Origin: an uncultured Litoreibacter sp. | GTDB lineage: Bacteria > Pseudomonadota > Alphaproteobacteria > Rhodobacterales > Rhodobacteraceae | Length of the DNA stretch: 64,000 nt | Direction: 5' to 3' | NCBI RefSeq assembly: GCF_947487515.1 | Contig: NZ_CANKWO010000005.1 | Location: 1 to 64,000 of the forward strand | Part shown: in pieces, positions 38,067 to 64,000 of the stretch | Position numbering within the stretch: the first letter of the stretch is position 1 | Layout: each line of letters opens with the position of its first letter | The notes under the pieces: model-generated | The model's input: only the letters and a program-made list of their open reading frames with translations | What the model was told of the DNA's origin: nothing | Database searches by the model: none | Position numbers and translations under genes: made by a program

Positions 38067-38083
38067 GCATTTCGGGACCTTGC

Positions 38084-39436: not shown

Positions 39437-39497
39437 TGGTGACCTTAGGACACTATGAGCGGGTTTATTGATAATTGAATGTGAAGATAGAGTGAAA

Positions 39498-39545: not shown

Positions 39546-39569
39546 GCGTAGATTTTAGGGAGAGGGAAT

Positions 39570-40094: not shown

Positions 40095-40160
40095 CGAGAT
40101 ATATACCCCCTGTGCGCCAAAGAGTGCTGCACGGGCAAGTGATAATTAAGGGGAACGACA

Positions 40161-41651: not shown

Positions 41652-41705
41652 ACAATTTCATTAGCGAAGTTTCCTACTGATTTATTGTAACCAAGGAGAA
41701 GACAC

Positions 41706-42215: not shown

Positions 42216-42244
42216 GCTGCGGACGCCTTTCGTTCATAAAACAA

Positions 42245-42285
42245 GGGGGCGCGCCGCTTGCCGGCGCCCCTCTGCCCCTCTTTCT
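42245..42285 (+). terminator. Hairpin after hcp, likely partial terminator
   Basis: GGGGCGC (42246-42252) pairs with GCGCCCC (42264-42270), with further pairing possible inside the loop; a pyrimidine-rich stretch follows (42271-42285) with only a short T run. It lies between hcp and tssE, a common place for an attenuator. Confidence 0.5.
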
Positions 42286-42381
42286 TCCGGACCGCAACCG
42301 CAGACCTGCTGTCTCGCATTCCGCTGCGTTTCCCTCCGAGCGATGGTCTGATCCAAACGTCGCCAGAGTGTACCCCGCCCG

Positions 42382-42957
42382 ATGAACAGCAAATCTTCCC
42401 CTTCAAATCGCAAGGCCGCCCAGCAAAATCAGGTGTCCCTGATGCATGTCTTTCGCGAGGCTGCTGGCAAAAAGGACGCCACCAATGACGGCGCATCCTA
42501 CAAAGAAGGTGAACGCGAAATCAGTCAACGCAGCGTTCAACGCCGCCATGGGGCCGATCAAGGGTCTTTGAAAGCGCATCTGAACGAAGATCTGGCGAAT
42601 CTAATGCAAACCATCCGACTTGATGCCGCCCTAGATTTGGACAGATACAAATACGTGGGTAAATCTGTGTTGAATTTTGGCATGGATGACATGGCGAATA
42701 TGTCGTCAAACTCCGAAAATCGGGGCCATCTGGAGCGACGTTTGCGCCAAGCCCTGATTGATCACGAGCCGCGCCTGATTCCAGAATCCATTGAAGTTGC
42801 GCTGCGTGAACAAGATAAGGACCTGAGCCAAAAGCTGGCGTTTGACATCGCAGCAGATCTGGCCGCAAATCCGATTGATGTACCACTAGAATTTGTTGCC
42901 GAAATTGACGTTGGTGGTGGTAAGGTTAATCTCTCTAAGTTGAAGGTTAATCGATGA
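42382..42957 (+). CDS. tssE: T6SS baseplate protein TssE (gp25-like)
   Basis: 191 residues. The gp25-like core is about 65-190 (LKAHLNEDLANLMQTIRLDAALDLDRY; SVLNFGMDDMAN; LERRLRQALIDHEPRLIPESIEV). The N-terminal 60 residues are polar and variable. Wedge subunit of the baseplate. Its stop overlaps the tssF start (ATGA), so baseplate parts are co-translated. No good ribosome site is seen ahead of the ATG. Confidence 0.93.
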   Translation: MNSKSSPSNRKAAQQNQVSLMHVFREAAGKKDATNDGASYKEGEREISQRSVQRRHGADQGSLKAHLNEDLANLMQTIRLDAALDLDRYKYVGKSVLNFGMDDMANMSSNSENRGHLERRLRQALIDHEPRLIPESIEVALREQDKDLSQKLAFDIAADLAANPIDVPLEFVAEIDVGGGKVNLSKLKVNR

Positions 42958-44888: not shown

Positions 44889-45982
44889 CCAAAATCCCTG
44901 CAAGCAAAAAGCCCGCGATGATGGGCCCGCCCAAACCGGCACCCACCGCGGCAGAGCTTCAGGGGTTGTCTCGTCGTGCGATGTTGAAGGCGGCCCCTTG
45001 GCGCTTTGGGTTTTTGTCTGCTTTGCGCGAAATGGAGCGTACCTACCCCGACAAGCCACGCATCGGGCAAAACGCGACCATTAGGGAAGAAATTGTCTCA
45101 CTGGGGCAAGATCCTTTTCTGGATTTTCCGGCCTCCAACATTACCGAGTTTGAGGAGAAACCAGCGGGGAAACCCGCGCGGTTAAACTCCAAGTTCCTCG
45201 GCTTTTACGGCCCGCAGGGTGCCTTGCCGCTGAACACAACCGCCGAAGTTCATGGCTGGCTCAATGCGCGCGACCCGAGTTTCGCACGGTTCACCGACAT
45301 CTTTGCGAACCGCTTCTTGCAACTGTTCTATCGCGCGTGGGCAGATGCGCGCCCGATTGCGCAGTTTGATCATCCGACCGGTGATCGGTTTCAGGCCTAT
45401 GTCGGCTCTCTTGCAGGACTTGGAACGCCCGCGTTTCAAGACCGCGACCATATCCCAGACGTGGCAAAGCTGCCTTTGGTGGCCTTGTTTTCTGGGCGGG
45501 TGAAATCTGCGGTCCGGCTGCGGCAGATGCTGGAGTTACTGCTTAAGGTTCATATCGAAATCGAAGAGCATGTTCCCAGCTGGATGAATTTTGAGCCACA
45601 AGACCTAACCCGAATGGGGTTGGGCGGCAGCAACTTGGGGCAGAACGTACATCTGGGCAGCCGAGTGCCAGCTGTGAACGAGAAAATCTGCATCAACGTG
45701 CGCACCGAAAGTTTTGAACAATATCGCAGCTATCTGCCAGGCGGCGACAACTTCACGCGGTTAACTGATATCGTCATTTGGTATCTTGGCGTCACCATCG
45801 AGGTCGACGTATCGCTCACCCTACCCGCAGATGAGGTGCCAGCGGCACAGCTTGGGGAACATACGGCCCTTGGCTGGACGGGCTGGGTTCAACCGGAAAA
45901 ACCCAAAGAACACGAACCGCGCCGCTATGTTCAGGCAGCGCAATTCTCAACCGACAGGGCACCGGCAAAAGCCGTGGCCTAA
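44885..45982 (+). CDS. tssG: T6SS baseplate protein TssG
   Basis: 365 residues from ATG 44885, which overlaps the tssF stop; a start 11 codons earlier lies inside tssF. WRFGFLSALREMERTYPDKPRIG (split) and the ITEFEE, FYGPQGALPLNTTAEV and RFTDIFANRFLQLFYRAWA stretches are diagnostic for VasB/TssG. Baseplate wedge component. tssH follows after 31 bp. Confidence 0.94.
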   Translation: MTKIPASKKPAMMGPPKPAPTAAELQGLSRRAMLKAAPWRFGFLSALREMERTYPDKPRIGQNATIREEIVSLGQDPFLDFPASNITEFEEKPAGKPARLNSKFLGFYGPQGALPLNTTAEVHGWLNARDPSFARFTDIFANRFLQLFYRAWADARPIAQFDHPTGDRFQAYVGSLAGLGTPAFQDRDHIPDVAKLPLVALFSGRVKSAVRLRQMLELLLKVHIEIEEHVPSWMNFEPQDLTRMGLGGSNLGQNVHLGSRVPAVNEKICINVRTESFEQYRSYLPGGDNFTRLTDIVIWYLGVTIEVDVSLTLPADEVPAAQLGEHTALGWTGWVQPEKPKEHEPRRYVQAAQFSTDRAPAKAVA

Positions 45983-46013
45983 GAAAATTAATTAATGAAA
46001 CGGGGATCTTAGT

Positions 46014-48825: not shown

Positions 48826-51195
48826 CTACCCCGCCTGTTCCAGCACCGCCTTGATGGTTTTCTTATAGGCCACGACTTCCGCAGGAATGCGTGCCACGGC
48901 AGGAGTTGACGCCGGAGCATTGGTGATCGTCAGCTTGCCCCCTTTTCGGTTCATCTTTCGCTCGGCCCAGTTTTTAACCCATGCAATGTCGCGGCCCTTC
49001 AAGAAGGGGTTTGCCTTGATCACCCCTGCCCCCATCACGTCCAGAATCGACGCCTGATCCGGCGCGCTTAGGGCCACATGTGCGCCCTGTGCCCCAAGGA
49101 AGTGGCAAAGATACAAACGCCCCGCGGTGATCGCATGCCCCCTTGCACGCAGGTAAGCTTCGCCTTCGCGGGCAAGATTGGTGACCATTTCGCGCGACAA
49201 TGTCGGGTCAAACCGCAGCTTCAACAGTTCTTCACGGCTCATGGTAGAGGCCAGATCCGGACGGTAGGTTTTCATCATCCTGATCCAAGTGCTCGAGATG
49301 AATTGTCCCAAACCCGTGGCCGAAGACCGAGAGTTTTTGGCTCTGGCATTGCCGGCGCTTTCCACCCGAATGATCTGGTTCACGAGGCTTTCAACCGCAT
49401 TGGAGGCCGATGCCATGATAACCGGAGCCGCCCCGACGGGGGGCGCCGTAAACGGGTCCATGCTTTGCCCGTTTTCGCGCAGCTCGAAATGCAGGTGTGG
49501 ACCGGTAGAGCGCCCCGTCGTGCCAACAAAACCGATCACATCGCCTGCCCTCACCACCGAGCCGACTTTCCCCAATGGCGAAAACTTCGACAAATGCGCA
49601 TAGCGGGTCTCACGCCCGCCCGCGTGGGCAATTTTTATGACATTGCCGTAGCCGCCGCCATTGCCCGCAAAGCTGACCCGTCCGGCAAAGGCGGCCAGAA
49701 TAGGTGTCCCCGTCGGTGCGGCCCAATCCACGCCGTGATGGACTTTTACCTTTTTCAAAATCGGGTGAAATCTTGGACCGAATGGCGACGTCAAAACACC
49801 CGACACAGGCGTCACCATTCCGTTGGAGCCGCTCACCGGTCCCGCTTCGCCTTTTTCCGCAAAGCACTTGAACCCTTCTCCCGCGACTTGCGCCACGTAG
49901 CAAATTTTATCCCCCGACGGCCCTTCAATGGCGGCATAAAGTACCTGACCCGGACCGGCGCCATTTGGCCCTGGCTCCCGCGCATAAAGCAACGTCATCT
50001 TGTCACCTGTCGTGGCGAAGGCCTCAAGATCATTGTCCTGACTTAGCAAAACGATGCTCTCACCCACCACCGACGTCGGCACGCCATTGCGGATACCTGC
50101 CGAGTAAAATGCATCCAGCAAACGGTATTTTCGCGCGGATACTTTATCCGTGCTGCCGTCATCCTCGACATAGGAGAACAATTCGTCCTGCACCCAAGGA
50201 TCCGCCGATTGCACCACGCTGCCGTCATCTTCCAGCGCGACCGAACCGATATAGGTATCGCGGGTGTAGACGGATAGTTGCACCGCTTTCGCCCCCTTTT
50301 CTGATGGCACGGATCGTACAGCCAACACATGGTCCGCAGGCAGTTTTTCCAGTTCCGGAATATGCGCTACGCCTTTGTCCTGAAACAGTTTGGCGGCCTC
50401 TGGATCAAAGCCGTTGTCCACCAAGATGTCAGTCAAAGCCCGCGCGTCTTTCAGGCGCAAGAACAAGTCGTTGAAGCCCAAATTGCGTTGATCTTCGCGC
50501 TTCACAACGGTCAGGCTTGTGGTGTTTTCAATCACTGTTTGAGTGTAGGTGTCGGCTTCGACTTCTTCACCGTCAACACTGTCACCCCAGCTGTCGCCCT
50601 CCAAACTGTCCTCATCATCCGAAGTGTTTTCCAAGTCTGGCACATCTGGGACAACCGGTGTCACGGCGGCCGGTGTCAGAGGCTGCGACCGCTTTGCTTG
50701 GAAGAAAGCGAACTCCTCGCGGCTGGATGGCAATGTGGTGATAAGTTTCTCTTGGCGCGTGATCATATCATCTTGAACAAGCACCAATGTATCAATGGCG
50801 AATTGCCCGACGCGCACCAAGGGAAGGTCTGGGTGGCTTGGCAGGGGTTTGGCTTTTGTGGCAAGGCTGGCGTCAAAGCGCAAAACCATCGGATCGCCCG
50901 CGACGTCGACGAAGGCTGACGCATAGGCAAGGGCGTCAGCGGTCGAAGTGGCAGTGATATCTTCGCCCAACCCTTCATCGAGGTCTTCAAGGGTCTCGGC
51001 CAATTCATCGGGTGTTAGCGTCCCCCTATCGGGTGGCGCGGAAATAGTGATAAAGCCGCTCATCACAATCCATGTGACAAAGCCGATAACCAAAAGGGCA
51101 CCACAGCCAATGAAGATGGCGGGGCCGTGATTTTTGCGGAATTTTCGGCGTGACGACTTCTTTTTGGCTTGTTTGAAGCGAGGGTCAATTTCCAT
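48826..51195 (-). CDS. Membrane-anchored peptidoglycan hydrolase: M23 endopeptidase fused to lytic transglycosylase
   Basis: 789 residues. A short basic cytoplasmic tail, one membrane segment at about 25-50, then a long periplasmic region (50-450). The M23 domain is at about 455-585 with zinc ligands around HHGVD (486-490) and HLHF (567-570). An SLT-type transglycosylase domain is at about 597-710 (RVESAGNARAKN with catalytic Glu612; GLGQF 628-632; RLYLCHFLGAQGA). The two activities cut peptide cross-links and glycan strands. T6SSs need local peptidoglycan opening to pass the cell wall, so this may be that enzyme (inference). Followed 20 bp upstream by the caspase-like gene in the same direction. 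Confidence 0.88.
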   Translation of the reverse strand: MEIDPRFKQAKKKSSRRKFRKNHGPAIFIGCGALLVIGFVTWIVMSGFITISAPPDRGTLTPDELAETLEDLDEGLGEDITATSTADALAYASAFVDVAGDPMVLRFDASLATKAKPLPSHPDLPLVRVGQFAIDTLVLVQDDMITRQEKLITTLPSSREEFAFFQAKRSQPLTPAAVTPVVPDVPDLENTSDDEDSLEGDSWGDSVDGEEVEADTYTQTVIENTTSLTVVKREDQRNLGFNDLFLRLKDARALTDILVDNGFDPEAAKLFQDKGVAHIPELEKLPADHVLAVRSVPSEKGAKAVQLSVYTRDTYIGSVALEDDGSVVQSADPWVQDELFSYVEDDGSTDKVSARKYRLLDAFYSAGIRNGVPTSVVGESIVLLSQDNDLEAFATTGDKMTLLYAREPGPNGAGPGQVLYAAIEGPSGDKICYVAQVAGEGFKCFAEKGEAGPVSGSNGMVTPVSGVLTSPFGPRFHPILKKVKVHHGVDWAAPTGTPILAAFAGRVSFAGNGGGYGNVIKIAHAGGRETRYAHLSKFSPLGKVGSVVRAGDVIGFVGTTGRSTGPHLHFELRENGQSMDPFTAPPVGAAPVIMASASNAVESLVNQIIRVESAGNARAKNSRSSATGLGQFISSTWIRMMKTYRPDLASTMSREELLKLRFDPTLSREMVTNLAREGEAYLRARGHAITAGRLYLCHFLGAQGAHVALSAPDQASILDVMGAGVIKANPFLKGRDIAWVKNWAERKMNRKGGKLTITNAPASTPAVARIPAEVVAYKKTIKAVLEQAG

Positions 51196-51215
51196 GGACT
51201 AAGCCCAAACCAACC

Positions 51216-53210
51216 TTAACGGAACGCGCCAGTGTTCAGCCTTGTGACGCGTTTTTGGGTCGTGCCTTTGGCTGTAGCTTGAGGCTTGGTAATCTTGCGA
51301 ATTGTTCTCTTCTTCTTGGTTTTCGTTGGCGCGGCTTTCTTCTTAACCGCGGCCTTCTTAACAGTCTTCTTCTTCACCGTTTTCGGTTTGGCGCGGGCCA
51401 CTTGCACTTTACAAACAACGCTGCCTTCAGATTTCAACTGACGAAGCAACGGGACGCTAGGCTCAAGGCTTTCAGGCACGATGCGCTTGTTCAGGAAGTA
51501 GCTGGTCAGCGCGCGGCGTGATCCGTTGCCCCAATCGCCGTCGATGCGCATCCGGTAGCAGCCCAAACGCGACAGCTCGGTCTGCACGTTTGACGCCATT
51601 TCCTCTGGGTCAATTTCTGGGACCACAGGCTGCTCAACGCCGGGTTGGGTAGTCGCGGCAAGTTCGTTCAACAACGTCGGGTCAATGCTCGCCAGAAGCA
51701 CACGGCTCTCTTCGGTATCTGGCAATACCTCTTGGCCGATAATGGTTGGCGCTTCAAAGATGGAGGCAGGCAAGCTGCGCGTGGCGGATGTCAAAGAGGC
51801 AACCAGCGCGATTTCGTCACGTGCACGTGCTGCAATCTTGGTGCCGGCGCGCGCAAGTTGGGCTGCGGCTTGCGAGCTTTGGTTTGCAGTGATGGCGCCG
51901 CTGCTGCTTGCGATTGCGGCAGAACCCGTCGGGCCTGCCCCCTCAATGTTCTGGATGTCTATTGTACCATTCGCTGTCGCGGCGGGGGCGGAGCTTGGCA
52001 AAAACGTATCAATGGTCTGGCGGTTCAATGTGTTGCTTGGCGCCCGTTCCAAAGACGCCAGCTCTATCACCACTGGCCCGACATTTTCCGCCACACCGGT
52101 TGAAGCCACGGCCTTCTCTGTCGATTTCACAACGTCCGGCACTGAGAAGATGAGGCCCACGTCATCTACGATAGCAACGTCTTCTGGGCGAATTGCTTCG
52201 GTAACTTTAACCGATGTTGCTGGCACTTCGATGGGATTGCTTGCAGGAATCGGAGCTGCAACAATCAATGAGTTTTCGTCTGCCACAGCCAATTCAAGGC
52301 TTTCGCCTTCAATCAACTCTGCGGGCGCGTCCACTGCAATTCCGCTTTCGGCCAATAGAGCCAAAAACCGCTCTCGGCCTTTAGGGTCAAGCTGCGCCAA
52401 CATTTCATAGTCGGCGGCCGTCAACGTCGGTGCGTTTTCATATTCCGGTTGGAAGTAGAACTGCGACCGCAAAGACGATTGATCCCACGGTGTTTGACGG
52501 CGCAACGTGCGTTCTTCGACTTCGTTACGGACCCGAATCATCATGTCCGAGATCGAGATCGACGGCGTCTCGATGTGGTTCAACAGCGCCGTGGTAAAAG
52601 GGCTGTTGTCGCCTTGGCCATCATAGGTCACCGCACCAGGTTCAGTTGCGAAGGCCACGAATGTTCCGATACCAGTGTTCAATCGCGCCAGACCGCCGCC
52701 ATTTGCTGTCATGTTTTGTGGCAAGGGGCTGTCGCGGCAAGCGTCCAAGAAGATCAGCGTTTGACGGTTCCGCGCCTGCAGGCGTTTGATGATCCCGTCT
52801 AGGCTCCACGTTTCGTCGAAGATAGCCTGACGCGACCGCAGTTTCGCATTTACCGGCACCAGATAATTGGCCCCTTCCAATTGAAAGGCGTGGCCAGAAT
52901 AATAGAACAAGGTGGTTTCGGCGTTTTCTGCCTTTTTGACGAAGTCTTCCAGCTTCAGCCAGAATTCATCCGACGTCGCATCCTTCAGCAATGTTACGTC
53001 AAAGCCCAAATTGCTGAGCGCGTCGTTCACAGCTGCAGCATCATTTTTTGGGTTTTTCAGGGCGGGAATTGCTTCGTAGTCAGAGTTACCGATGATCAAC
53101 GCCACACGATCTTGTGCATAAAGAGGTGCGGCAAGCACAAAGAACGCGACTACCGAGACGGCAATCAGACGTTCAAATAGAAGCCCGAACTCTTTAAAAA
53201 TATGCGTCAT
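51216..53210 (-). CDS. Exported caspase-family (C14) protein with peptidoglycan-binding-like domain
   Basis: 664 residues from ATG 53210; an upstream TTG is less likely. Signal peptide (LIAVSVVAFFVLAAPLYAQ). Caspase-like domain about 33-270 with catalytic His107 (YYSGHAF) and Cys158 (FLDACRDS). A long low-complexity region (about 280-520) follows, then a peptidoglycan-binding-like motif (about 550-590; LSRLGCYRMRIDGDWGNGSR), and a Lys-rich tail (about 610-664). Periplasmic metacaspase-like proteins occur in alphaproteobacteria; substrates are unknown. It is the gene upstream of the M23/transglycosylase gene, 20 bp away, so the two may act together at the cell wall. Confidence 0.85.
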   Translation of the reverse strand: MTHIFKEFGLLFERLIAVSVVAFFVLAAPLYAQDRVALIIGNSDYEAIPALKNPKNDAAAVNDALSNLGFDVTLLKDATSDEFWLKLEDFVKKAENAETTLFYYSGHAFQLEGANYLVPVNAKLRSRQAIFDETWSLDGIIKRLQARNRQTLIFLDACRDSPLPQNMTANGGGLARLNTGIGTFVAFATEPGAVTYDGQGDNSPFTTALLNHIETPSISISDMMIRVRNEVEERTLRRQTPWDQSSLRSQFYFQPEYENAPTLTAADYEMLAQLDPKGRERFLALLAESGIAVDAPAELIEGESLELAVADENSLIVAAPIPASNPIEVPATSVKVTEAIRPEDVAIVDDVGLIFSVPDVVKSTEKAVASTGVAENVGPVVIELASLERAPSNTLNRQTIDTFLPSSAPAATANGTIDIQNIEGAGPTGSAAIASSSGAITANQSSQAAAQLARAGTKIAARARDEIALVASLTSATRSLPASIFEAPTIIGQEVLPDTEESRVLLASIDPTLLNELAATTQPGVEQPVVPEIDPEEMASNVQTELSRLGCYRMRIDGDWGNGSRRALTSYFLNKRIVPESLEPSVPLLRQLKSEGSVVCKVQVARAKPKTVKKKTVKKAAVKKKAAPTKTKKKRTIRKITKPQATAKGTTQKRVTRLNTGAFR

Positions 53211-53314
53211 AGACCTTTGGCTATCCGCTCCACTCAAATCTTATCCAAGAGTGTAGCCCGAATCCCCCTCGAACGGCGAGTCACTTCTTTGGGAAAATTG
53301 CACGAATTTGGTTC

Positions 53315-53761
53315 TTAGTTGGGCGGAGCCAGAAAAAGAGACCATCGTTGGGTTTTCTCAGTATCCACTTCAATAAACCGCGCCTGCACATGTCCCCGCG
53401 ACCAACAGCTTGCAATGCCCCTGATGGTGAACCGCTTTCCCTCGATGCACATCGTCGTCGTGCCATTCAGCATCGGCTTGCCAAACACGTCTTGCGCATA
53501 GACGTAGATATAGCGGCTTTCCAGTTCATCACGGATAACGTTTGCGCATTGGTTGGTCCCGATCGTCCACCAGCCTTCGGTCTGGAAATCGCCTTCCACA
53601 TCGCGCCCGATGGCAACGTTCACCACATCAAAGCTTTGGTTACAAATAGCAAACTCCGCTCGGGCAGGGCTTGGCGCAAGCGTGAAGCCGCCGATCAATA
53701 CCAGCACAAGGGCGGCAATGCGTCGGGACGTGTAACTCAATGATGCGGCGACATGTTTCAT
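53315..53761 (-). CDS. DUF1036 exported protein
   Basis: 148 residues with a signal peptide ending APSPARA. The remainder fits DUF1036 (FAICNQSFDVVNVAIGRD; GWWTIGTNQCANVI; YIYVYAQD; four Cys that could pair). Function unknown for the family. It lies just upstream of the caspase-like gene on the same strand and is divergent from the next exported protein. Confidence 0.8.
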   Translation of the reverse strand: MKHVAASLSYTSRRIAALVLVLIGGFTLAPSPARAEFAICNQSFDVVNVAIGRDVEGDFQTEGWWTIGTNQCANVIRDELESRYIYVYAQDVFGKPMLNGTTTMCIEGKRFTIRGIASCWSRGHVQARFIEVDTEKTQRWSLFLAPPN

Positions 53762-54652: not shown

Positions 54653-54762
54653 CTTGCCGCGATCTTCCGTTGACAGCGAGGCCATGATGCGCCCTTCTAT
54701 GTGCAACGGTTTTGTGCAGGATCACGGGACCTTTGATATCAATATTTCTCGGGGGACCTCGC

Positions 54763-55203
54763 GTGCACAAGCTGACCAAATCCATTTTTAACGCAACCGC
54801 AACTGCAGCAACCGCTGCGGCATTGGCTTTTGCCACTCCAGCATTGGCCCAAAGCGGCAATTTCGCGTTGGAGCTCAATAACGCCACAGACATCGGGGAC
54901 GGCTGCCAACTTACCTATGTTGCAACCAACAACACCGGCATTGCCTTGGTGGAAACAGCCTATCAGGTCGCATTATTTGACGAGAACAGTCTTGTCACCG
55001 GTACTTTGGTTCTGGAATTTGGCGCGCTGCCGGTCGGGAAAACCAAAGTGGTGCAGTTCAACCTTGCAGGCAAAAAATGCGCCACGATTTCGCGGATTTT
55101 GATCAATGATGTGTCTGCTTGCAAATCGGCTGATGGCACTCATGATTTCTGCATGACCGGCCTGATCACGAATTCTCGCGGCGACATCCAGCTGGGCGTC
55201 TAG
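54763..55203 (+). CDS. Small periplasmic four-cysteine protein, unknown
   Basis: 146 residues from GTG 54763, which has GGGGGA about 6-11 bases upstream; the open frame extends 17 codons further without a site. Signal peptide ending ATPALAQSG. The mature part of about 115 residues is strand-rich and holds four Cys (DGCQLTY, KKCAT, SACKS, DFCMT), probably two disulfides. No family recognised. 61 bp ahead of the ExbB-like gene in the same direction, so it may be the periplasmic partner of that complex. Confidence 0.6.
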   Translation: MHKLTKSIFNATATAATAAALAFATPALAQSGNFALELNNATDIGDGCQLTYVATNNTGIALVETAYQVALFDENSLVTGTLVLEFGALPVGKTKVVQFNLAGKKCATISRILINDVSACKSADGTHDFCMTGLITNSRGDIQLGV

Positions 55204-55264: not shown

Positions 55265-55909
55265 ATGAACGCCCCCGATTTTTCGTCTTTGAACCCCGTT
55301 ACCATAGCCGTTTTTACGGCTTTGGCGGCTCTTTCCATGGTCGCCACCACGGTCACCCTCTATAAAATTGCGCAATTCATGTCCCTTGGCGTTGGGCGCA
55401 GAAAGCCCGCAGAGGCCGCTGTATCTGACTGGCTGTCGGGCAAGTCGGACGCCGCCCTACGCGAGGCATCCACCCGCAAAACCACCTTGCTTCGGGTGTT
55501 GCAGGCAACTTTTTCGGGGCTGCAAGCCCGCCCCGGAGACCCGACATATGCGGAAGAGTTGGGCCGTCAAACCGCGCTGATCGAGCTTGCCGCCATGTCG
55601 CGGCGCATGCGTATTCTGGAAGCCGTGGTTCAGGCCGCCCCGATGCTTGGCTTGCTGGGGACGGTGATCGGAATGATCGACGCCTTTAGCAATCTCGCAC
55701 AGGCCGAGGGCGCGGTTGACCCTGCCCTTTTGGCTGGCGGCATTTGGACCGCCCTAACCACCACCGCCGTTGGGCTGGTGATTGCCTTGGTGTTCTACTT
55801 TGTCGCCATCTGGCTAGAGGGGCGAATAGACAGCGAACGTCATTCCATGGAAACCTTGATGTCCGCCGCCATCTACGGGCGCGTCACCGGCACCTCTGGG
55901 CGCAGTTGA
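55265..55909 (+). CDS. MotA/TolQ/ExbB-type proton channel protein
   Basis: 214 residues with three membrane segments (about 11-33; 117-140; 158-185). The conserved core LEAVVQAAPMLGLLGTVIGM is at about 113-132, and ALTTTAVGLVIALVFYF supplies the Thr-lined channel helix. Such proteins form pentamers that, with two ExbD/TolR chains, convert proton flow into motion. The first gene of exbB-exbD-exbD-tonB-like. Its position inside a T6SS locus makes ordinary siderophore uptake unlikely. Confidence 0.9.
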   Translation: MNAPDFSSLNPVTIAVFTALAALSMVATTVTLYKIAQFMSLGVGRRKPAEAAVSDWLSGKSDAALREASTRKTTLLRVLQATFSGLQARPGDPTYAEELGRQTALIELAAMSRRMRILEAVVQAAPMLGLLGTVIGMIDAFSNLAQAEGAVDPALLAGGIWTALTTTAVGLVIALVFYFVAIWLEGRIDSERHSMETLMSAAIYGRVTGTSGRS

Positions 55910-55919
55910 GGCCGCCGCG

Positions 55920-56366
55920 ATGAGCATGATCCGCAGCCTGCCCCAATCCAACAGGGCGCGCCGCTACGGCTTTTCGTTCACGCCTTTGGCTGACGCGATG
56001 TTTCAGCTTTTGGTATTCTTCATGCTTACCTCGTCGCTGGCCCCCTATTCCCTGATGTCCCTTACACCCGGGTCCGCGGGCACAATCGAGGCCGCAGGTG
56101 ACGCCCCCAAACATGAGCAGGTCTCAACCGACGAACAGCGGGTGGCCGTTTGGTCTGTGGGTCGCGGCACATTGCGGGCGGGCGGCGAAAAAGTCGCCCT
56201 TTCCGAAATTCACGGGCTGGTTGATCCGTTGATTGAAGCAGGCCTCGACCGCGTGGTGCTTCTGACCGGTCGCTCGGCGACTGTGCAGGATATGACCGCA
56301 GTGCTAGAGGCCCTGACATTGGCCAATGTGCCCACTGTCGAAGTCGTCGCGGGCAGCGCCAGATGA
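55920..56366 (+). CDS. ExbD/TolR-like protein with the conserved membrane Asp
   Basis: 148 residues. One membrane segment at about 21-42 (TPLADAMFQLLVFFML), holding Asp25, the proton-carrying residue of the family, then a periplasmic domain of about 100 residues. Overlaps the second ExbD-like gene by 4 bp (ATGA). Confidence 0.87.
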   Translation: MSMIRSLPQSNRARRYGFSFTPLADAMFQLLVFFMLTSSLAPYSLMSLTPGSAGTIEAAGDAPKHEQVSTDEQRVAVWSVGRGTLRAGGEKVALSEIHGLVDPLIEAGLDRVVLLTGRSATVQDMTAVLEALTLANVPTVEVVAGSAR

Positions 56367-56788
56367 CCCCTGACAAGCGCAATACTCTTCCCAAAACGCA
56401 GCGCAAGTTTCCGCTGGATTTCTCGCTGACGACCGTCAACATTGTGTTGTTACTGATCTTCTTCTTCCTCGTGTCCGGCTCCTTGGTCGAAACCGAAGAG
56501 CTAACGGTCGATCTTGCCGAAACCTCCGAGCTACCGCTTGATCGTTTGCCGCGCCCTTTGCTGCTGATGGATGTGGACGACAAGTTGCGCCTGAACGGTG
56601 ATCCGGTCACCTCCGATACATTGTTGTCGGCCCTCACTCCTTTGCTAAACCCGACTGCGCCGAGGCTGCATATACTGGCGGATCGTGACGTCGCCGCCGG
56701 AACCTTGGTGACACTGATACAAAGACCCGACTTGCGCGGGATCGAGATAAAACTTGTAACCCTGCGCCAACACAAGCCAAAGTCATGA
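56363..56788 (+). CDS. ExbD/TolR-like protein with Asn in place of the membrane Asp
   Basis: 141 residues. The membrane segment (about 20-40; FSLTTVNIVLLLIFFFL) aligns with its neighbour but has Asn26 where the proton-carrying Asp belongs. The periplasmic part follows the ExbD pattern (LLLMDVDDKLRLNGDPV; LHILADRDVAAGTLVTLIQ). Probably the non-proton-carrying chain of a heterodimer with the preceding protein. Overlaps the TonB-like gene by 4 bp. Confidence 0.83.
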   Translation: MTPDKRNTLPKTQRKFPLDFSLTTVNIVLLLIFFFLVSGSLVETEELTVDLAETSELPLDRLPRPLLLMDVDDKLRLNGDPVTSDTLLSALTPLLNPTAPRLHILADRDVAAGTLVTLIQRPDLRGIEIKLVTLRQHKPKS

Positions 56789-58080
56789 GCGTTGGCAGCA
56801 CCAATATTTGGGATCGTCCAGACGCAAATCCGATGCTTTGGCTGGCCACTGGCGCCCTAGCTTTTCTGGCACATCTCGCCTTGCTGCAATTTGGAATTGC
56901 CACCTATCAAGGGCAGGTGTCAAAGGCCAAAGAGCCAGTCACAGAGACCAAAATTTTTGCGTCCGCTCTTCAGATCGAAGGGGCAGAGCCGCCACCGGAA
57001 CTCACGGCGGATCCTGTTGCGACCCCTTTGTCCGACACCGTTGAACCCAGTCTTCAGTCTTCCCCCAGCCTTGCGCCGTCTCTTGCTCCGGTTGCGGTTG
57101 AAACCTTGGCACCGCAAGCTGTTGCTCCTCCGACCGTTGCCCAAGCGACCCCGATCGCTGATACGCCGCCGCCACCGCCGCAGCCAGGCGTGGCCCCCGT
57201 AAATGCCGCCCCAATCACGCCAGTGACGGTCACCCCTGATTCTGCTCAGCCAGAAGAAACCTTGCAGGTCGCAACCCTTGAGGCGCAGACGGTGACGGGG
57301 GTTGAGTTGGCTCCGGAGCCCACCCCAGAACCCGCACCCGAACCGGCCCCCCTGCCCGAATTGGCCAACTCCCTTCCGCCTCCCGTTAGCCCCACGACAG
57401 AGCCGCAGGCAGGTGTGGCCTCCGCCAATGTGGCCGCGCAAACAACCGAGCAAGCCCAAGAGACCTATACTGCCGTGCTAGATTTCATGCGCAGCTTTGA
57501 TGGCGGGCCTTGCTTCGCGGCGCTGCCGGTTCTGGCGGAAGATGGCGCATTCCGCTTCGAGACCTTTGCCAAGAACCAAGCCGATTTAGACCGGTTCAGA
57601 AAGGCGCTGGAAGGCAAGACCGGCACCCTTCCCGGCACTGTGATGAAACCTGTAAGCGATGCGCAGTGCCAAGCCCTTCCCTTTGTGACGGCCGCCGCAC
57701 GCTATCCAGAATTTCAGCTCTACCTAGATCTTGCACAGCGGGAAATTCCCAGCGGGGACATTCTGTCGGGAAAGCTGGGGAACACCTCGGGGGGATTTGT
57801 GTCGCTGCTGCTGATCGATGACGAAGGCGTGGTGCAGGACTTGGGCAGTTTCTTGAAGTTTCGCGCCGGTTACGCAGGTTTTGACATCCCGATGACGCTC
57901 AAAGGGTCTCCGGTGAAGACGCAGCAATTGCTCATGGCCCTGTCTACACGGGCACGGTTGAAGACGCTGAAGTCACTATCCGGTCAGCCTGCGAAAGACT
58001 TCTTTCAACGGCTGGCGATCGAGATTTTGCTGCAAGGTGGCGGCGAGGACGTGGCCCTCGTCGCCTTTTCTGTACGCTAG
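56785..58080 (+). CDS. TonB/TolA-like protein with the same C-terminal domain as PpkA
   Basis: 431 residues. Short cytoplasmic start, one membrane segment (about 17-40), a long Pro-rich periplasmic linker (about 65-220) and a C-terminal domain at 228-431. That domain is not the usual TonB/TolA fold by sequence. It matches residues 577-780 of the neighbouring kinase: C243/C589 and C295/C641 (52 apart in both), DxQCxxLxFV, GDxLSGKL 29 residues after the second Cys in both, and T-R-x-R-L near 388/735. Built like an energy-transducing arm for the ExbB/D motor. Its TAG shares CTAG with the stop of the converging ppkA. Confidence 0.78.
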   Translation: MSVGSTNIWDRPDANPMLWLATGALAFLAHLALLQFGIATYQGQVSKAKEPVTETKIFASALQIEGAEPPPELTADPVATPLSDTVEPSLQSSPSLAPSLAPVAVETLAPQAVAPPTVAQATPIADTPPPPPQPGVAPVNAAPITPVTVTPDSAQPEETLQVATLEAQTVTGVELAPEPTPEPAPEPAPLPELANSLPPPVSPTTEPQAGVASANVAAQTTEQAQETYTAVLDFMRSFDGGPCFAALPVLAEDGAFRFETFAKNQADLDRFRKALEGKTGTLPGTVMKPVSDAQCQALPFVTAAARYPEFQLYLDLAQREIPSGDILSGKLGNTSGGFVSLLLIDDEGVVQDLGSFLKFRAGYAGFDIPMTLKGSPVKTQQLLMALSTRARLKTLKSLSGQPAKDFFQRLAIEILLQGGGEDVALVAFSVR

Positions 58081-60419
58081 TTATCCAATCGGAAATACTG
58101 GATTGAGGCCGCCGCCTCAGAGCCGCTGGTCTGAATTTCCGTCTCGATGATAGGCATCAGCGCCGCGACATCTGCCCCGTTTCGCGCAGCATTGGCGGTG
58201 ACCAGTCGTGAACGGGTCGTCACCGCCACAATCATCTGCGGGACGCTTCCGTCCTCGCCCGCGCTGTTCATCCCAAAGCGGAAAGACTGCGATCCGTCGG
58301 CATCCGTTTGCAGCAACGACGTCAAATTGAACGCGCCACCTTTGCCCGAGACCAAGAACAAATAGACCGGACGCCCTAGAACACCTGTCAGCTTCCCGCT
58401 GAGCGTATCGCCGGTTTTCAAGACATCCGTGTCCAGTTCCAACACAGGCGCTGCGGCGTTGGTGCGGTCAAGTCGCGCCACAAAATCTAGCACAGGACAT
58501 TGGCTGTCTCGCACAATGCGCACGCCGATGTCCGGCTCTACCCCATGGGCGTTCTCGAAGTCTGTCAGCAATTCCTCAAAGGGTTGCGCCGAGGTCGCAA
58601 ACCCTTCGATGGAAACCTTCTCTCCATCCGTGGACCGTATCGCCTGATACACGCAGTCCCCGATAATGTAGTCCTTCAACCAAGCCAGTTGCGTTCCGAT
58701 TTCCCCCAAGGTGGGGTCAGGGTCCGGCGTGGCTGGGGTCGGTTCGGGATCGGGCGTTGGTTCAGGATCGGGCTGCGGCTCTGGATCCGGTTGCACATCG
58801 GGTTGCTCCTCAGGATCGGGATCGGGTCCCGGATCAGGCGGAAGCTCCGGATCAGGAGTTTCACTTGGAGTATTGTCTTCGGGGTTCGGTGCAGGATCGG
58901 GGACTTCGGTTGGTTCTTCCTCAGGCGTTGGCGCGACCGCGACTTCCACCGCCGCCTCGTCGTCAATCTCCGCTTCAAACGGACCGAGCCCCAAAACAGC
59001 AGCTATTCCGACACCGCCAGCCACCACAGCCGCAAGGCCGATGCCAATCAGCTTACCTTTGCCATTGCGCTCAGCCGGTTCTGCCTGAGGTGGGGCGGTA
59101 GGTGTAGGGGCAGTCGTGACCGGTGCAGCACCAAACGGGCTTTCGCCACCGGTCTGTTGCCCCATGGGCGGTGAATTTGGCGGCAGGCTGATCCCTGCCC
59201 CAGTAACGGCTACACCTGTGCTATCGGCGGCATATGGCACCGCGGAGGTGCCAACGCCCCCCGTTTGCATTTGCGGAGGCGTAGAGATCATTGGGCTGAT
59301 CACTGTGCGCCCAGCATCAGCTGCGGCCTCTGCCGCTGGGGCTTCTGCACCGGGGCGGTATTTCGCAGGCACCAGTGACGGGTCGTCGATCATCCGTGCG
59401 ACATCGGCCATAGAGGCGGGGCGATGTGCTGGGTTGGGCTCCAACATGTAGGACAGAACCGGCTGCAATTCAGGGTAGACCGCTGACAAGTCAGGGATGC
59501 CGGCACGTGACTGAACCGCATCGACAATAGACGCGCCCATCGGCAATGGCGTCCCGATGGCCGCCCCTGCTGACATCAATCCCAAAGAATAGATATCACA
59601 GCGTGAATCGATCAGCCCGTCAAAGTGGCCAAGCTGCTCTGGCGAGACGAAATTGAATTTGCCCGCAAATTGACCATGTAAGGTGCCTTCGGTGATGTTG
59701 GTGGATTTGGCAATCCCGAAGTCGATCAGCTTGGCTTGGTTTAGCTTGCCACCCTCGACGATGACATTGTCGGGGCTTAAATCACGGTGGGTGATTTCCA
59801 ACTCATGCGCACGGTTCAAACCTGTCGCCAATCGGCGAATAAGCAGCTTCACATCTTCCAGCGACAGCTTGCCGGTTTGCTCCACCATATCCGCCAAGGG
59901 GATGCCGTCGACGAATTCCATGATCAGGCAGAATCGCCCAAGGTCTTCGTCCTTCACGAAATTCAGGTAGCGGACAATCGCCTCGTCATAGAGCTTGCCC
60001 AAGATGCGGGCTTCGCGCCGGAACAATGCAATGATCTTTTCATCATGAGCCAAGGCAGGCAAAACGATCTTGATCGCAACCTGATCGCCGGTGTGGTAAT
60101 TCACCCCACGGTAAACTTCGCCCATCCCCCCTGCCGAGATCAGCTCTTCGATTTCGTAATTGTTGTTAATCCGCGTACCGACAGGCACGGCGGTAGACGG
60201 GGTACCGTCCCCGTCGCCGCTTTTGGCGGGGGCTTCCTCTATCGGGTCTGGCGTGGGGTCCTCTACGGGCGAGGCCGCGATCTCCGTTTTGTCCGATGCC
60301 ACAGGCGCAGGCTTTTTGCCCGCGGATTTCTTCGCGGGGGCCTTGCCGGTGTCACCCTTTTTGGGCGCGTCTGCGCCCTCTGGGGTTTCTGGCTCGTCAG
60401 GGATGTCGTCTGTGCTCAT
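58077..60419 (-). CDS. ppkA: T6SS serine/threonine kinase PpkA
   Basis: 780 residues. An acidic/Lys N-terminal region of 88 residues precedes the kinase domain (about 89-345): glycine loop ISAGGMGEVYRG (94-105), Lys117, catalytic HRDLSPDN (211-218, Asp213), DFG (233-235), SPEQL. Linker, one membrane segment (about 457-478), a periplasmic Pro/Asp/Glu-rich spacer (497-572) and a C-terminal domain (577-780) shared with the TonB-like neighbour. In known systems PpkA dimerises on a periplasmic signal and phosphorylates the FHA protein to start T6SS assembly. Follows pppA by 6 bp. Confidence 0.92.
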   Translation of the reverse strand: MSTDDIPDEPETPEGADAPKKGDTGKAPAKKSAGKKPAPVASDKTEIAASPVEDPTPDPIEEAPAKSGDGDGTPSTAVPVGTRINNNYEIEELISAGGMGEVYRGVNYHTGDQVAIKIVLPALAHDEKIIALFRREARILGKLYDEAIVRYLNFVKDEDLGRFCLIMEFVDGIPLADMVEQTGKLSLEDVKLLIRRLATGLNRAHELEITHRDLSPDNVIVEGGKLNQAKLIDFGIAKSTNITEGTLHGQFAGKFNFVSPEQLGHFDGLIDSRCDIYSLGLMSAGAAIGTPLPMGASIVDAVQSRAGIPDLSAVYPELQPVLSYMLEPNPAHRPASMADVARMIDDPSLVPAKYRPGAEAPAAEAAADAGRTVISPMISTPPQMQTGGVGTSAVPYAADSTGVAVTGAGISLPPNSPPMGQQTGGESPFGAAPVTTAPTPTAPPQAEPAERNGKGKLIGIGLAAVVAGGVGIAAVLGLGPFEAEIDDEAAVEVAVAPTPEEEPTEVPDPAPNPEDNTPSETPDPELPPDPGPDPDPEEQPDVQPDPEPQPDPEPTPDPEPTPATPDPDPTLGEIGTQLAWLKDYIIGDCVYQAIRSTDGEKVSIEGFATSAQPFEELLTDFENAHGVEPDIGVRIVRDSQCPVLDFVARLDRTNAAAPVLELDTDVLKTGDTLSGKLTGVLGRPVYLFLVSGKGGAFNLTSLLQTDADGSQSFRFGMNSAGEDGSVPQMIVAVTTRSRLVTANAARNGADVAALMPIIETEIQTSGSEAAASIQYFRLDN

Positions 60420-60425: not shown

Positions 60426-61208
60426 TTAAAATCCTTGCGTCCAGTCAAGCGGTTCGCCATTGGCCGCAGGGTCTAAAGGGCGGGCATCGCAGCGAACGGC
60501 GATCACTGTGACGTTATCTCTTGCGCCACGTGACAACGTGGTCTGGATCAGTGCGTCGCACGCGGCTTGCGGATCGTGGTTGGTCAAGGCCGCTGCCATC
60601 TCATGGTCTTCGACATGTTCCGTCAACCCGTCAGAGCACAAAAGAAACACGTCTCCTGCCTGAAGGCTGCCAAATGTTTCGTCTGTGTTCGGGCTGCTAG
60701 AGACGCCGATGGCGCGGGTAATGACGTTCTTGCGCGGCCAATGCTCTGCTTGTTCGGCGTTGATCGCACCAGAGTTCAGCAATTCCTGTACCTCGGTGTG
60801 GTCGGTGGTGACTTGCCGAAAAGCCCCGTCGCGCAGCAGATAGATGCGGCTGTCACCGGACCAAATGCAGGCGAATAGTTCCTCATGTACCAGCAGTGCG
60901 ACCAAAGTGGCCCCGATCGTGGCACCGCCAAGGGCTTGAGACTGCTCTACAATGACATCATGCGCGCGGGTCAATCGCTCCATAAAGCGGGCTTGCAAAT
61001 CTGGTGCCGATGCAGGGCGCCCAATGGAGGAGATTTTCTCTACAATTGCTTGCGACGCGAAATCGCCTGCCTCATGCCCGCCCATACCGTCAGCAACCAC
61101 CCAAACGCCGCTTTCGGGTTTGCTCAGATAGCTGTCTTCGTTATGATCACGGACGACGCCGGTATCGCTACCTGCGCCTGTCTCGTAGATGAATTGACCC
61201 GTCCCCAT
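60426..61208 (-). CDS. pppA: T6SS PP2C-type phosphatase PppA
   Basis: 260 residues. PP2C metal-binding motifs are all present: VRDHNEDSY (about 18-26), VVADGMGGHEAGDFA, WSGDSRIYLLRDG, LCSDGLTEHV and GARDNVTVIAV. Cytoplasmic. It removes the phosphate placed by PpkA on the FHA protein, resetting the T6SS. Next to ppkA, 101 bp after tagF. Confidence 0.94.
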   Translation of the reverse strand: MGTGQFIYETGAGSDTGVVRDHNEDSYLSKPESGVWVVADGMGGHEAGDFASQAIVEKISSIGRPASAPDLQARFMERLTRAHDVIVEQSQALGGATIGATLVALLVHEELFACIWSGDSRIYLLRDGAFRQVTTDHTEVQELLNSGAINAEQAEHWPRKNVITRAIGVSSSPNTDETFGSLQAGDVFLLCSDGLTEHVEDHEMAAALTNHDPQAACDALIQTTLSRGARDNVTVIAVRCDARPLDPAANGEPLDWTQGF

Positions 61209-61309: not shown

Positions 61310-62290
61310 CTAGTCTTTTTCCGCCTCGTCTGCCAAGGCATCCTGTGCGTCATTGCTCTCATCAGTTGCAGCATCAACGCGTATTTCAGACGTTTGGGCA
61401 AATGGAGACTGTGGTTCGTCATCGTCTTCAATTGGATCTGGCACATAGAGTGCCTTTGGAACGGGCCGCGCGCCCTCGCCCGACCACCAAGGATCAGACA
61501 CTGGTATGATCGACGGCTCGCCTTCGAATTCTGCGTGGGTCTCCGGCTTCGCGTCGACGTCAAACGGGTCCTCTGGGGATGCGGTTTCAGGCGCTGTTTC
61601 TGCGGCGGGTTGGATGTCTTGTTCAATGGGATCATCCGCAGGGTTGCCCGCAAGCAGCCATTGAAACACAGAGGCATCCGGCCAACCTTCTGTGGCGTGA
61701 AAAGTCGCTGTGCGGGACGGGTCACCTGCACTCCACCAGTAGCTGCGGCGCGCGGTGGCACGGCGGTGGTCAGTGGCGGCGACATTCGCCATCATTTCCT
61801 CTACTGCCCCTGCGGTGTGGACGGCCCAAAATCCTGTGTCCCCGCCCTCAAACGGCGTGGGTAAAAATCCTTCGGGCAGGCGAAACATCTCTGCCAACTC
61901 GGAGGCCGTCTCTGGCGTGTCATGCTCCAGTACCAATGCTTGCAGCGCCTCATACCAGCGTTGCTCCGGCACGACTGAGGGGGGCGGAAACTGGGTGCCC
62001 TCGATCAATGCAATAAGGGGAAACCGGCGCCCGACTTTGTCATGGCTGAACACCATCACCCCAGCCACAGGCCCGCCTACAGCGGAAGGCACAACCCCTT
62101 CCCCAAGCCAAAACCGCAAGGGAAGGGCGATGTCATAGAAAGGCTGCCAGACGTCGCCCAGATTGTCGCGAACACGAGGCAGAACTGCGCCCAGCCATTC
62201 CTCCAAGGCAACCTGCATAGGTTTGGACATCCCCGCCCCGATAAAGTCCCCGAAGGCAGGGTGTTTGCCAAATATACCAATCTTTCCCAT
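61310..62290 (-). CDS. tagF: T6SS regulator TagF
   Basis: 326 residues. The N-terminal TagF domain of about 210 residues is clear: GIFGKHPAFGDFIGAGM, LPRVRDNLGDVWQPFYDIALPLRFWL, GVMVFSHDKVGRRFPL, and RSYWWSAGDP. The C-terminal 110 residues are acidic and low-complexity. TagF represses T6SS after translation, in parallel with PppA. 8 bp after tssM. Confidence 0.92.
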   Translation of the reverse strand: MGKIGIFGKHPAFGDFIGAGMSKPMQVALEEWLGAVLPRVRDNLGDVWQPFYDIALPLRFWLGEGVVPSAVGGPVAGVMVFSHDKVGRRFPLIALIEGTQFPPPSVVPEQRWYEALQALVLEHDTPETASELAEMFRLPEGFLPTPFEGGDTGFWAVHTAGAVEEMMANVAATDHRRATARRSYWWSAGDPSRTATFHATEGWPDASVFQWLLAGNPADDPIEQDIQPAAETAPETASPEDPFDVDAKPETHAEFEGEPSIIPVSDPWWSGEGARPVPKALYVPDPIEDDDEPQSPFAQTSEIRVDAATDESNDAQDALADEAEKD

Positions 62291-62298: not shown

Positions 62299-64000
62299 TC
62301 ACAGACCTTGCGGGCATTTGAATTCGGATAATTCGCGTAGGGTGAACGGGTTATAGAGCGCGTTGACCCGAACCGAATAGCTGACATACCGCCCGCCAAT
62401 TGTGTAGCGCACCTGCGTGGCGTCCCCTTGTTGGCGAGGAGAGCCCGCGCGCACAAACTGCATGAACGCCCATGGCCCTTGATCAAATTGGATAGAGCTT
62501 TGACGTCCGTTCAACCCCGGCAAAAACTGCAAGGTGGTCGAGGACCCCGCCGACGGCCATTTGATCGTTTGCGGCACATTCCCGACTTGGCGTGTGGTGA
62601 TTACCTGTCCGTTCACTTCCAGCACGGCTTGGCGCACTTGGTCATGCGCCGAGGCTTGGCTGACCGTGACTTCCAATTCGGGGTTGGAGCCGCCCGTCGG
62701 GAAGAAGGCATCGCGAATGCGGGCCGCGCGTTGGAATTGCTTCAAGGCACCAAGGCTCAATCTGTCCCCAAGCTGGCTTTCCGACGACCATTTCCAGTTT
62801 TCGCCGGATTGATCCGCGTGCGGGCTTAGATGTTGCAAGAAGAACCGGTCCATCACGCCGTCCGGTGCGAAAACCCGCGCAAATTGCGCCATCGGCACTT
62901 GCCGTGAGGTCGGCCCGTTAAACGGATAGCGGCCCGTGATAATGTCGTTGCAAACGCGGGTGACTTGGTTGGTGAGATCTTGGTTCAGCTGTGCGATCGA
63001 CGTATTCGCCGCGTCGCCTTCAAAGTCCTCAACCGCTTCATTCACCATGCGCGCCAATGGGGTGGGCAAACGCGACGCCGTTGAGCGCAAAATGCCAATC
63101 TGAACCGGCAGCTGCGCGGCGGCCTGTGTGGCGTTGAACCCCGCGGCAATCACAAGGTTTTGTTGCACCTGCCCCAAGTTGCCCAAAAGCGCATCAATCG
63201 GGCGTGCTGTCCCTGCAGAGCCAGTGTCGAGCAACGCATGCCATTCAGCAAATTGTGCCTCGATTGCAGCACCGGGAACCAGCGCTTGGGATTGCCCGCC
63301 GCCAGCGGATCCTGCACGCCGTTGCGATTTGCTGCCGGTGCCTAAGGCCGCCGTCAGGCCAATCCGCGTCAGACCATTGGTGCGGTTGATAAGACGGTTC
63401 TTCACTTGGTTGGCGGCTTGTATGCTGGCCTCGGATTCAGCCAGCCCGCTAACCGCACCAGCAACGTCGCCCCCAAGCTCCAGACCTTCATTTGGATCAG
63501 CCGTCAAACGCGTCTCGCGGCTGACCGCTTCAACCAGCATCAACAAGGGCGATGTGGTCGGCGATGAGGCCGCGGCCAAAGACGCATAGGCGGGTTTATC
63601 CGCCGACATCGGGGCCAGTTTCAACTGGTTCAACAACCCTTCCCATGCCGAGAGGTAATCCTCGCGGTATTTTCCCAGCAACGCACGGCCCAAGCCACTC
63701 AATTGTGCGTCAACCTTGGCGGTTTCGGCGTAGTCGCCCATGACCCATTGTTCACGGTCGAGCTTGCCTGCAACCTCGCTCAGCTGGTCGAGGAAGAAGT
63801 TTTGAAAGCCGTCATAGGTATAAAGGGCGTTCACGCCCAAATCACCCACATCAGAGCCGTCATTGGTCTCAAACACCAGATAGGCATCCGGCCCCACACG
63901 GTCCACCAGATTGAAGGCTTCAATGCCTGAAAACTCCACTGTTGCCTTGATCAAAGCATAGGCCTGATCCGCCACAGACATCCGCGCCAAAATCCGCTCG
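62299..64000 (-). CDS. tssM: T6SS membrane-complex protein TssM (IcmF), C-terminal part
   Basis: The frame is open to the right edge; at least 567 residues of the C-terminal periplasmic part are visible. Typical IcmF-associated stretches: VDRVGPDAYLVFET, YTYDGFQNFFL, ARVFAPDGVMDRFFLQHLSPHAD, FQRAARIRDAFF and the beta-rich end with QFDQGPWAFMQFVRAG and YTIGGRYVSYSVRVNALYNPF. TssM spans the inner membrane and joins TssJ in the outer membrane. tssJ, tssK and tssL are likely just outside the window. Confidence 0.93.
   Translation of the reverse strand, partial: ERILARMSVADQAYALIKATVEFSGIEAFNLVDRVGPDAYLVFETNDGSDVGDLGVNALYTYDGFQNFFLDQLSEVAGKLDREQWVMGDYAETAKVDAQLSGLGRALLGKYREDYLSAWEGLLNQLKLAPMSADKPAYASLAAASSPTTSPLLMLVEAVSRETRLTADPNEGLELGGDVAGAVSGLAESEASIQAANQVKNRLINRTNGLTRIGLTAALGTGSKSQRRAGSAGGGQSQALVPGAAIEAQFAEWHALLDTGSAGTARPIDALLGNLGQVQQNLVIAAGFNATQAAAQLPVQIGILRSTASRLPTPLARMVNEAVEDFEGDAANTSIAQLNQDLTNQVTRVCNDIITGRYPFNGPTSRQVPMAQFARVFAPDGVMDRFFLQHLSPHADQSGENWKWSSESQLGDRLSLGALKQFQRAARIRDAFFPTGGSNPELEVTVSQASAHDQVRQAVLEVNGQVITTRQVGNVPQTIKWPSAGSSTTLQFLPGLNGRQSSIQFDQGPWAFMQFVRAGSPRQQGDATQVRYTIGGRYVSYSVRVNALYNPFTLRELSEFKCPQGL

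Follow-up and report, generated by a model that had tools for sequence, protein, structure and literature searches.

A candidate ExbB/ExbD motor module in type VI secretion loci of Rhodobacterales whose arm shares its C-terminal domain with the kinase PpkA

Introduction

What tells a bacterium to build a type VI secretion system (T6SS)? The triggers of T6SS assembly that act through the Ser/Thr kinase PpkA have been worked out in few species, and a locus from an uncultured Litoreibacter sp. (Rhodobacterales; Rhodobacteraceae) raises the question of whether a motor in the cell envelope may be among them. The window analyzed here comprises 64,000 nucleotides, positions 1 to 64,000 of the forward strand of contig NZ_CANKWO010000005.1 (assembly GCF_947487515.1), from a host genome of 3.34 Mb that is 99.83% complete. 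Within a T6SS locus of this window, the genes exbB, exbD1, exbD2, and tonBL, the last of which encodes a TonB-like arm (TonBL), form a candidate motor module that converges with ppkA. An original prediction, made from the sequence alone, held that TonBL and PpkA end in the same domain, so that a proton-driven envelope probe and the kinase could respond to one ligand in common or sense one another, in place of the TagQRST route of Pseudomonas.

Envelope inputs to PpkA have been described in other bacteria. TagQRST of P. aeruginosa and the RtkS protein of Serratia are such inputs, and RtkS is reported to bind the periplasmic part of PpkA (PMC6082577). TssW, an outer-membrane protein of Acidovorax, is also reported to bind this part of the kinase (PMC12607579). 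For the T6SS of Agrobacterium, a PpkA-TssL-Fha pathway has been described and orthologues of TagQRST are reported to be lacking (PMC3953482).

Results

The open reading frames of the original prediction were recovered, and Pfam confirmed the families of ExbB, ExbD1, ExbD2, and PpkA. The plus strand carries ExbB, a TolQ-type motor channel subunit (55265..55909; PF01618, E=3.2e-27), followed by ExbD1 (55920..56366; PF02472, E=4e-10) and ExbD2 (56363..56788; PF02472, E=2.9e-08), with both families matched beyond their cut-offs, and by TonBL (56785..58080), for which no Pfam or NCBIfam family was found. TonBL consists of a transmembrane (TM) helix (56830..56898), a long linker, and a C-terminal domain (residues 228-431; 57466..58077). 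PpkA lies on the minus strand (58077..60419; PF00069, E=1.9e-36) and possesses the HRD and DFG motifs, a TM helix at about residues 457-479, a linker, and a C-terminal domain (residues 577-780; 58080..58691) that, judged by topology, is probably periplasmic. PpkA shares one T6SS locus with PppA and Fha, as is expected of a T6SS kinase. The proposed operon with 4-bp overlaps holds for ExbD1/ExbD2, ExbD2/TonBL, and the convergent stops of TonBL and PpkA; ExbB and ExbD1 are instead separated by a 10-bp gap.

The claim that the same domain of about 204 residues ends both proteins was borne out. The single pair gave a BLASTP alignment of 31% over 137 aa (E=1e-14) and a Smith-Waterman score of 135, where shuffled sequences averaged 31.5 (z=19.7, 2000 shuffles), and family profiles of 19 TonBL and 17 PpkA domains, aligned by hhalign, matched over 203 columns with a probability of 99.7% (E=1e-25). 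AlphaFold2 predicted both domains with high confidence, with a mean predicted local distance difference test (pLDDT) score of 92.9 for TonBL (77 rows) and 94.1 for PpkA (51 rows). When the predicted structures were compared as secondary-structure strings, and not as coordinates, the state was identical at 189/212 aligned residues, and six shifted registers gave 0.27-0.35. Unrelated folds, which would have counted against the prediction, were therefore not seen; the elements follow the same order, with an alpha/beta N-terminal half and an immunoglobulin (Ig)-like C-terminal half. Pfam offered no credible family for the domain, with best E values of 0.006 among 77 TonBL and 0.03 among 51 PpkA copies, and none of the PDB sequences fits either domain. 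The vWA family was not among the Pfam matches of the 77 TonBL domains; the C-terminal half gave Ig-like matches, and the N-terminal half was barely probed. The closest named relatives for the TonBL/PpkA domain are Litoreibacter albidus (90% identity) and L. meonggei (87%).

The paired Cys residues noted in the original prediction lie 52 residues apart in both proteins (Cys243 and Cys295 in TonBL, Cys589 and Cys641 in PpkA) and are kept in relatives. Within the final 212 residues, each of the 76 TonBL rows and 51/53 PpkA-labelled rows contain exactly two Cys; one of the PpkA-labelled rows, L108, is actually a TonBL. Of the motifs that had been proposed, QC is retained (76/76 TonBL rows, 48/53 PpkA-labelled rows); GDxLSGKL and TRxRL are not retained in the other genera aligned.

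Both exbD genes are present in 82 of the 84 loci examined, the remaining two being a rhizobial locus and a short contig. The proton-binding site of ExbD1 is Asp in 82/82 loci (D25 in the window, codon at 55992), while in ExbD2 it is Asn in 80/82 (N26, codon at 56438) and Ser in one (L062); the single Asp reading (L074) stems from a misaligned column in an apparently disrupted locus with broken frames in several genes. ExbD1 thus carries the Asp by which a proton-conducting ExbD is recognized, and ExbD2 does not. Neither this difference nor the giant autotransporter described below, which lies beyond the window, was part of the original prediction. If the two proteins pair in one ring, as we infer, the motor would hold a single proton carrier. 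In the TM helix of TonBL, His is found in 79/81 rows (H30 in the window), and position His-4, the other motif position scored, is Ser in 59 and Ala in 20, including the window. The corresponding His of TolA and TonB is described as essential to motor binding (PMC12204202). Because the helix retains this motor-contacting His, TonBL probably docks on ExbB/ExbD. The linkers of TonBL (189 residues, 20% Pro) and PpkA (98 residues, Pro/acidic) could allow both domains to reach far across the periplasm.

Dozens of Rhodobacterales carry this motor module, mostly inside T6SS clusters. In a family sample of 295 genomes, TonBL was matched in 25 (E<=0.001). By their neighbors, 19 of these represent TonBL with adjoining exbD genes, and the other six comprise four PpkA or PpkA-like kinases and two low-complexity matches. 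The tssF gene is found in 72/295 genomes of the sample and in 19/19 module genomes (Fisher p=3e-13). For 78 named loci, stretches of up to 10 kb on each side were fetched, and 64 of these contain T6SS core or accessory genes; several of the other 14 are short contigs. Among 23 atypical genomes that were searched (a 24th record, a Mesorhizobium plasmid, stands outside this count), 22 have tssF farther down the contig or in another part of the genome, the exception being G347. The four genes also lie alongside T6SS genes on annotated plasmids of Paracoccus, Sagittula, Leisingera, Thioclava, and Rhodovulum, on which TonBL is annotated as a hypothetical protein or, in Leisingera, as a serine/threonine protein kinase. 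Of 76 loci scored, 48 have TonBL convergent with PpkA at a distance of <=1 kb, and in 24/76 the fetched stretch is without PpkA. Therefore, exbB-exbD-exbD-tonBL is a family-wide module whose genes stay together and usually lie close to T6SS genes. A module found mostly away from T6SS loci, beside an outer-membrane receptor, would have counted against the prediction; the survey instead ties it to T6SS genomes, and the host genome has no TonB-dependent receptor plug.

Two side observations concern the surroundings of the module. The T6SS loci of the family form TssF score groups, one with E values around 1e-200 and one with values around 1e-150 to 1e-175. The module accompanies both, and in the family sample mostly the second. 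In Leisingera sp. S132 (L034), the plasmid that carries the module also has type III secretion genes, at a distance of about 12-14 kb.

The host genome itself has neither a PF07715 Plug domain nor TonB_C. TonB_C is not listed by Pfam for any of the 77 TonBL domains, and hhalign of the TonBL domain against TonB_C gave probabilities of 0.1-5.4%. Three ExbD-family genes are present, namely exbD1, exbD2, and one on another contig that is taken to be tolR. The module is not a nutrient TonB system in this genome.

In a tree of 63 chosen rows, the TonBL domains form a group (SH-aLRT 99, from the Shimodaira-Hasegawa-like approximate likelihood ratio test) apart from the PpkA domains. The kinase of Mesorhizobium falls on the PpkA side and that of Phyllobacterium sits on a long branch of unsure place, so that the root is not fixed. 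The two domains appear to represent two groups from one old split, and a single gain of the domain by the arm would be the simplest reading. Across 50 loci and seven locus parts, the distances of the TonBL and PpkA domains show a partial rank correlation of 0.43 (0.35-0.53), second of 21 pairs behind kinase-phosphatase (0.46); other values are 0.33 for TonBL-kinase, 0.26 for TonBL-ExbB, and 0.25 for TonBL-ExbD2. When a giant autotransporter that accompanies the module is included (33 loci, six parts), the correlation of the two domains is 0.56 and tops 15 pairs. Both top pairs, the two domains and kinase-phosphatase, are physically adjacent, and shared recombination history is therefore an alternative cause of the correlation.

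Discussion

Taken as a whole, these results lead us to favor, with confidence evenly balanced between acceptance and doubt, a proton-driven motor dedicated to the T6SS whose arm works with the sensor domain of PpkA. The control of PpkA by envelope proteins in other bacteria provides a precedent. An ExbB ring would enclose a mixed ExbD pair, one subunit with Asp and one with Asn, and drive the TonBL arm. The TonBL domain and the periplasmic sensor domain of PpkA, with their common ancestor, would act in one sensing unit, in which the motor moves or loads TonBL against a putative outer-membrane or surface partner, perhaps via the giant autotransporter. The state of TonBL, bound by the matching domain of PpkA or competing with it, would then set PpkA activity, and this activity would lead via Fha/TssL phosphorylation to T6SS assembly. 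Mutual binding of the two domains, competition for one partner, and hand-over of load are all conceivable ways of working. The module suggests that T6SS firing is governed by a force-generating envelope device.

A more specific form of this proposal is speculative, and we think it rather unlikely to hold in full. PpkA would be a force-gated kinase, in which a half-proton-active motor loads TonBL between the inner membrane and the giant surface autotransporter. Contact with a neighboring cell would change the load, the TonBL domain would be exchanged for or released from its twin in PpkA, the kinase would switch, and a T6SS would be built at the point of touch.

Several observations weigh against a joint action of TonBL and PpkA. 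D..GVVQD, the strongest motif of TonBL, is mostly altered in PpkA, although the kinases of L022 and L029 are among those retaining its Asp and Gly; the differing motifs argue against identical ligands for both domains. To the predicted sensing of a common ligand or of each other, the old split and the correlated distances lend indirect support, and the altered motif speaks against a simple shared ligand. The distances of TonBL also correlate with the kinase part of PpkA (0.33), and the barrel of the autotransporter displays little co-divergence with either domain (TonBL 0.11, PpkA -0.06; 33 loci). The coding ends of TonBL and PpkA adjoin, so that the distance correlation is no proof of contact, and adjacency of the 3' ends may by itself produce it. 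PpkA does not adjoin TonBL in Paracoccus, Leisingera, Thioclava, and Rhodovulum. Moreover, four genomes of the family sample (G121, G131, G247, and G273, the last 73% complete) have a domain-bearing PpkA and no TonBL match, Exb genes were not seen in the stretches of G121 and G131, and stretches of Mesorhizobium (L035) and Phyllobacterium (L142) with such a PpkA list no Exb genes. The kinase, therefore, does not need the motor.

It is possible, if unlikely, that the motor performs mechanical envelope work for T6SS assembly independently of kinase signalling. TonBL would pull on a component of the outer membrane or of the peptidoglycan and thereby enable TssLM, which stands without a recognizable TssJ, to cross the wall with the help of the linked peptidoglycan hydrolase, and PpkA would use the same docking domain to reach the site. 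The fetched stretches are in line with this, as they contain peptidoglycan hydrolase genes in 51/78 loci, caspase-fold/peptidoglycan-binding genes in 67/78, and DUF1036 genes in 58/78, and TssL bears an OmpA-type domain. TssJ (PF12790) was detected in 0/19 module genomes vs 14/53 other T6SS genomes of the family sample (p=0.008), that is, in 14 of the 72 T6SS-bearing genomes overall. However, this hints only weakly at a role in outer-membrane anchoring, because TssJ is likewise undetected in 39 of the 53 non-module T6SS genomes. The hydrolase, caspase-fold, and DUF1036 genes also occur in rhizobial T6SS loci that list no Exb genes, and mechanical work alone leaves unexplained why the domain of the arm is the domain of the kinase.

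An improbable alternative is that the motor serves the giant autotransporter, with TonBL energizing its insertion into the outer membrane, the export of its passenger, or its movement; the resulting surface filament would then signal to the T6SS or position it. The host's own copy (L116:12904-15900, contig 72903-75899) contains repeats and is cut by the contig end; it has no Pfam match of its own and was assigned via alignment and profile. In relatives, the open frames reach 4004 residues and share a conserved 500-residue end, and among 12 of them Pfam matched PF03797 in two (best E=3.9e-14), Pertactin in two (5.6e-05), and AC_1 in three (0.017). The association with the module is close. The barrel is present in all 50 module genomes searched (of 78 fetched), and in the family sample, where 22 genomes have it at E<1e-40, it occurs in 18/19 TonBL genomes (p=5e-24; the exception, G147, is 73% complete) and in 20/25 domain-bearing genomes vs 2/270 others. 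It lies <=20 kb from TonBL in 15 of the 18 genomes with both, the others being G240 (about 59 kb), G149 (about 149 kb), and G166 (other contig), and in L040-L042 it stands beside the module though core T6SS genes are not within 10 kb. Contrarily, G121 and G131 have the autotransporter and a domain-bearing PpkA, and TonBL was not found in them; its tie to the kinase domain is therefore no looser than its tie to the motor. In G149, the autotransporter is close to PpkA, and the motor is about 149 kb off. Barrel and TonBL domain show little co-divergence (0.11), and autotransporters are not known to require such a motor. An autotransporter is also annotated in the Mesorhizobium record, with a weak profile match (E=2e-4).

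It is still less probable that the sharing of the domain is incidental, with a general periplasmic binding domain copied once and a motor function unrelated to PpkA or the T6SS, which would run against the presence of tssF in 19/19 module genomes, the convergent adjacency in 48/76 loci, and the correlated divergence of the domains. Ordinary uptake through a TonB-dependent receptor, to which the ExbB/ExbD families and the TonB-type TM helix might point, is contradicted in this genome by the lack of Plug and TonB_C in a nearly complete assembly and by a domain that is not TonB_C by Pfam or hhalign, and its probability is negligible.

The favored motor with a PpkA-related arm resembles several known systems in part. 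As in TonB-ExbB-ExbD and TolA-TolQ-TolR, proteins of the ExbB and ExbD families accompany an arm with a His-containing TM helix, a long linker, and a globular periplasmic domain; unlike in these systems, the domain is not TonB_C, the genome is without a receptor plug, the two ExbD proteins are unlike and one is without the proton-binding Asp, and the genes are found with T6SS loci. The closest architecture found is that of the vWA force transducers described in 2025 (PMC12204202), whose genes adjoin one tolQ-like gene and two tolR-like genes that differ from each other. There, too, a motor and two dissimilar TolR/ExbD genes go with an arm that combines the TM motif with a domain other than that of TonB. 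The TonBL domain is predicted to be alpha/beta plus Ig-like and is common to PpkA; neither 'type VI' nor 'kinase' occurs in the main text of that article, and its section 8 contains no Asp/Asn split. TagQRST, RtkS, and TssW are also envelope proteins acting on PpkA; unlike TonBL, they are not described, in the portions of those articles considered here, as the arm of a proton-driven motor or a paralogue of the PpkA sensor (PMC6082577, PMC12607579). AglRQS of Myxococcus combines one MotA/ExbB-type with two MotB/ExbD-type proteins, but AglQ and AglS are both described with a conserved aspartate (PMC9389320), whereas here the sole Asp is in ExbD1. The Agrobacterium PpkA-TssL-Fha pathway represents another alphaproteobacterial T6SS kinase pathway, and no motor is mentioned in the portion of the article considered (PMC3953482).

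Among the matches listed in the open-access literature of PubMed Central (PMC), neither a motor dedicated to the T6SS, nor an arm paralogous to the sensor of the kinase, nor a fixed pair of one Asp and one Asn ExbD was found. The module offers a defined and deletable candidate input to PpkA for a large bacterial family and, if the proposal is true, links proton-driven force transduction with kinase signalling. With its fixed Asp/Asn pair, the module also provides a natural means of testing whether one proton carrier allows a 5:2 motor to run, or to run differently by design, and TonBL extends the range of domains known from the arms of Ton/Tol-class motors.

Other features of the locus

The T6SS locus starts at 35 kb and occupies the rest of the contig, which ends at 75.9 kb. 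On the left, it begins with Fha, an FHA-domain protein and likely reader of PpkA phosphorylation (36012..37352, plus strand; PF20232, E=3.5e-49; PF00498, E=5.9e-14), and an OmpA-family protein, followed by the core genes tssA, tssB, tssC, hcp, tssE, tssF, tssG, and clpV (38057..48758, plus strand). Between clpV and exbB, three recurrent neighbors lie on the minus strand, namely a peptidoglycan hydrolase with M23 peptidase and SLT domains (48826..51195; PF01551, PF01464), a caspase-fold protein with a peptidoglycan-binding domain (51216..53237; PF00656, E=2.1e-38; PF08823, E=2.3e-4), and a DUF1036 protein (53315..53761; PF06282, E=1.8e-32). The three (48826-53761) have counterparts in the rhizobial T6SS loci L035 and L142. 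Directly upstream of exbB lies a gene for a small predicted periplasmic protein (54712..55203, plus strand), also recurrent. Of 78 loci, 73 have a homologue either of this protein or of a small protein from Rhodovulum, and the protein is also present in G121, where Exb genes were not seen.

Beyond ppkA, the minus strand encodes PppA, a PP2C phosphatase (60426..61208; PF00481, E=2.8e-14; NF033484, E=1.5e-63, under the NF033484 cut-off) that, judged by its family, would oppose PpkA, then TagF (61310..62290; PF09867, E=1.8e-24) and TssM (62299..64000), which continues to contig position 66009. Past the window follow TssL, TssK, a Tle1-like phospholipase, a DUF4123 protein, and the giant autotransporter severed by the contig end (75899). 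The phospholipase (L116:9137-10537) and the nearby DUF4123 protein (L116:11803-12897) are likely a T6SS effector and its adaptor.

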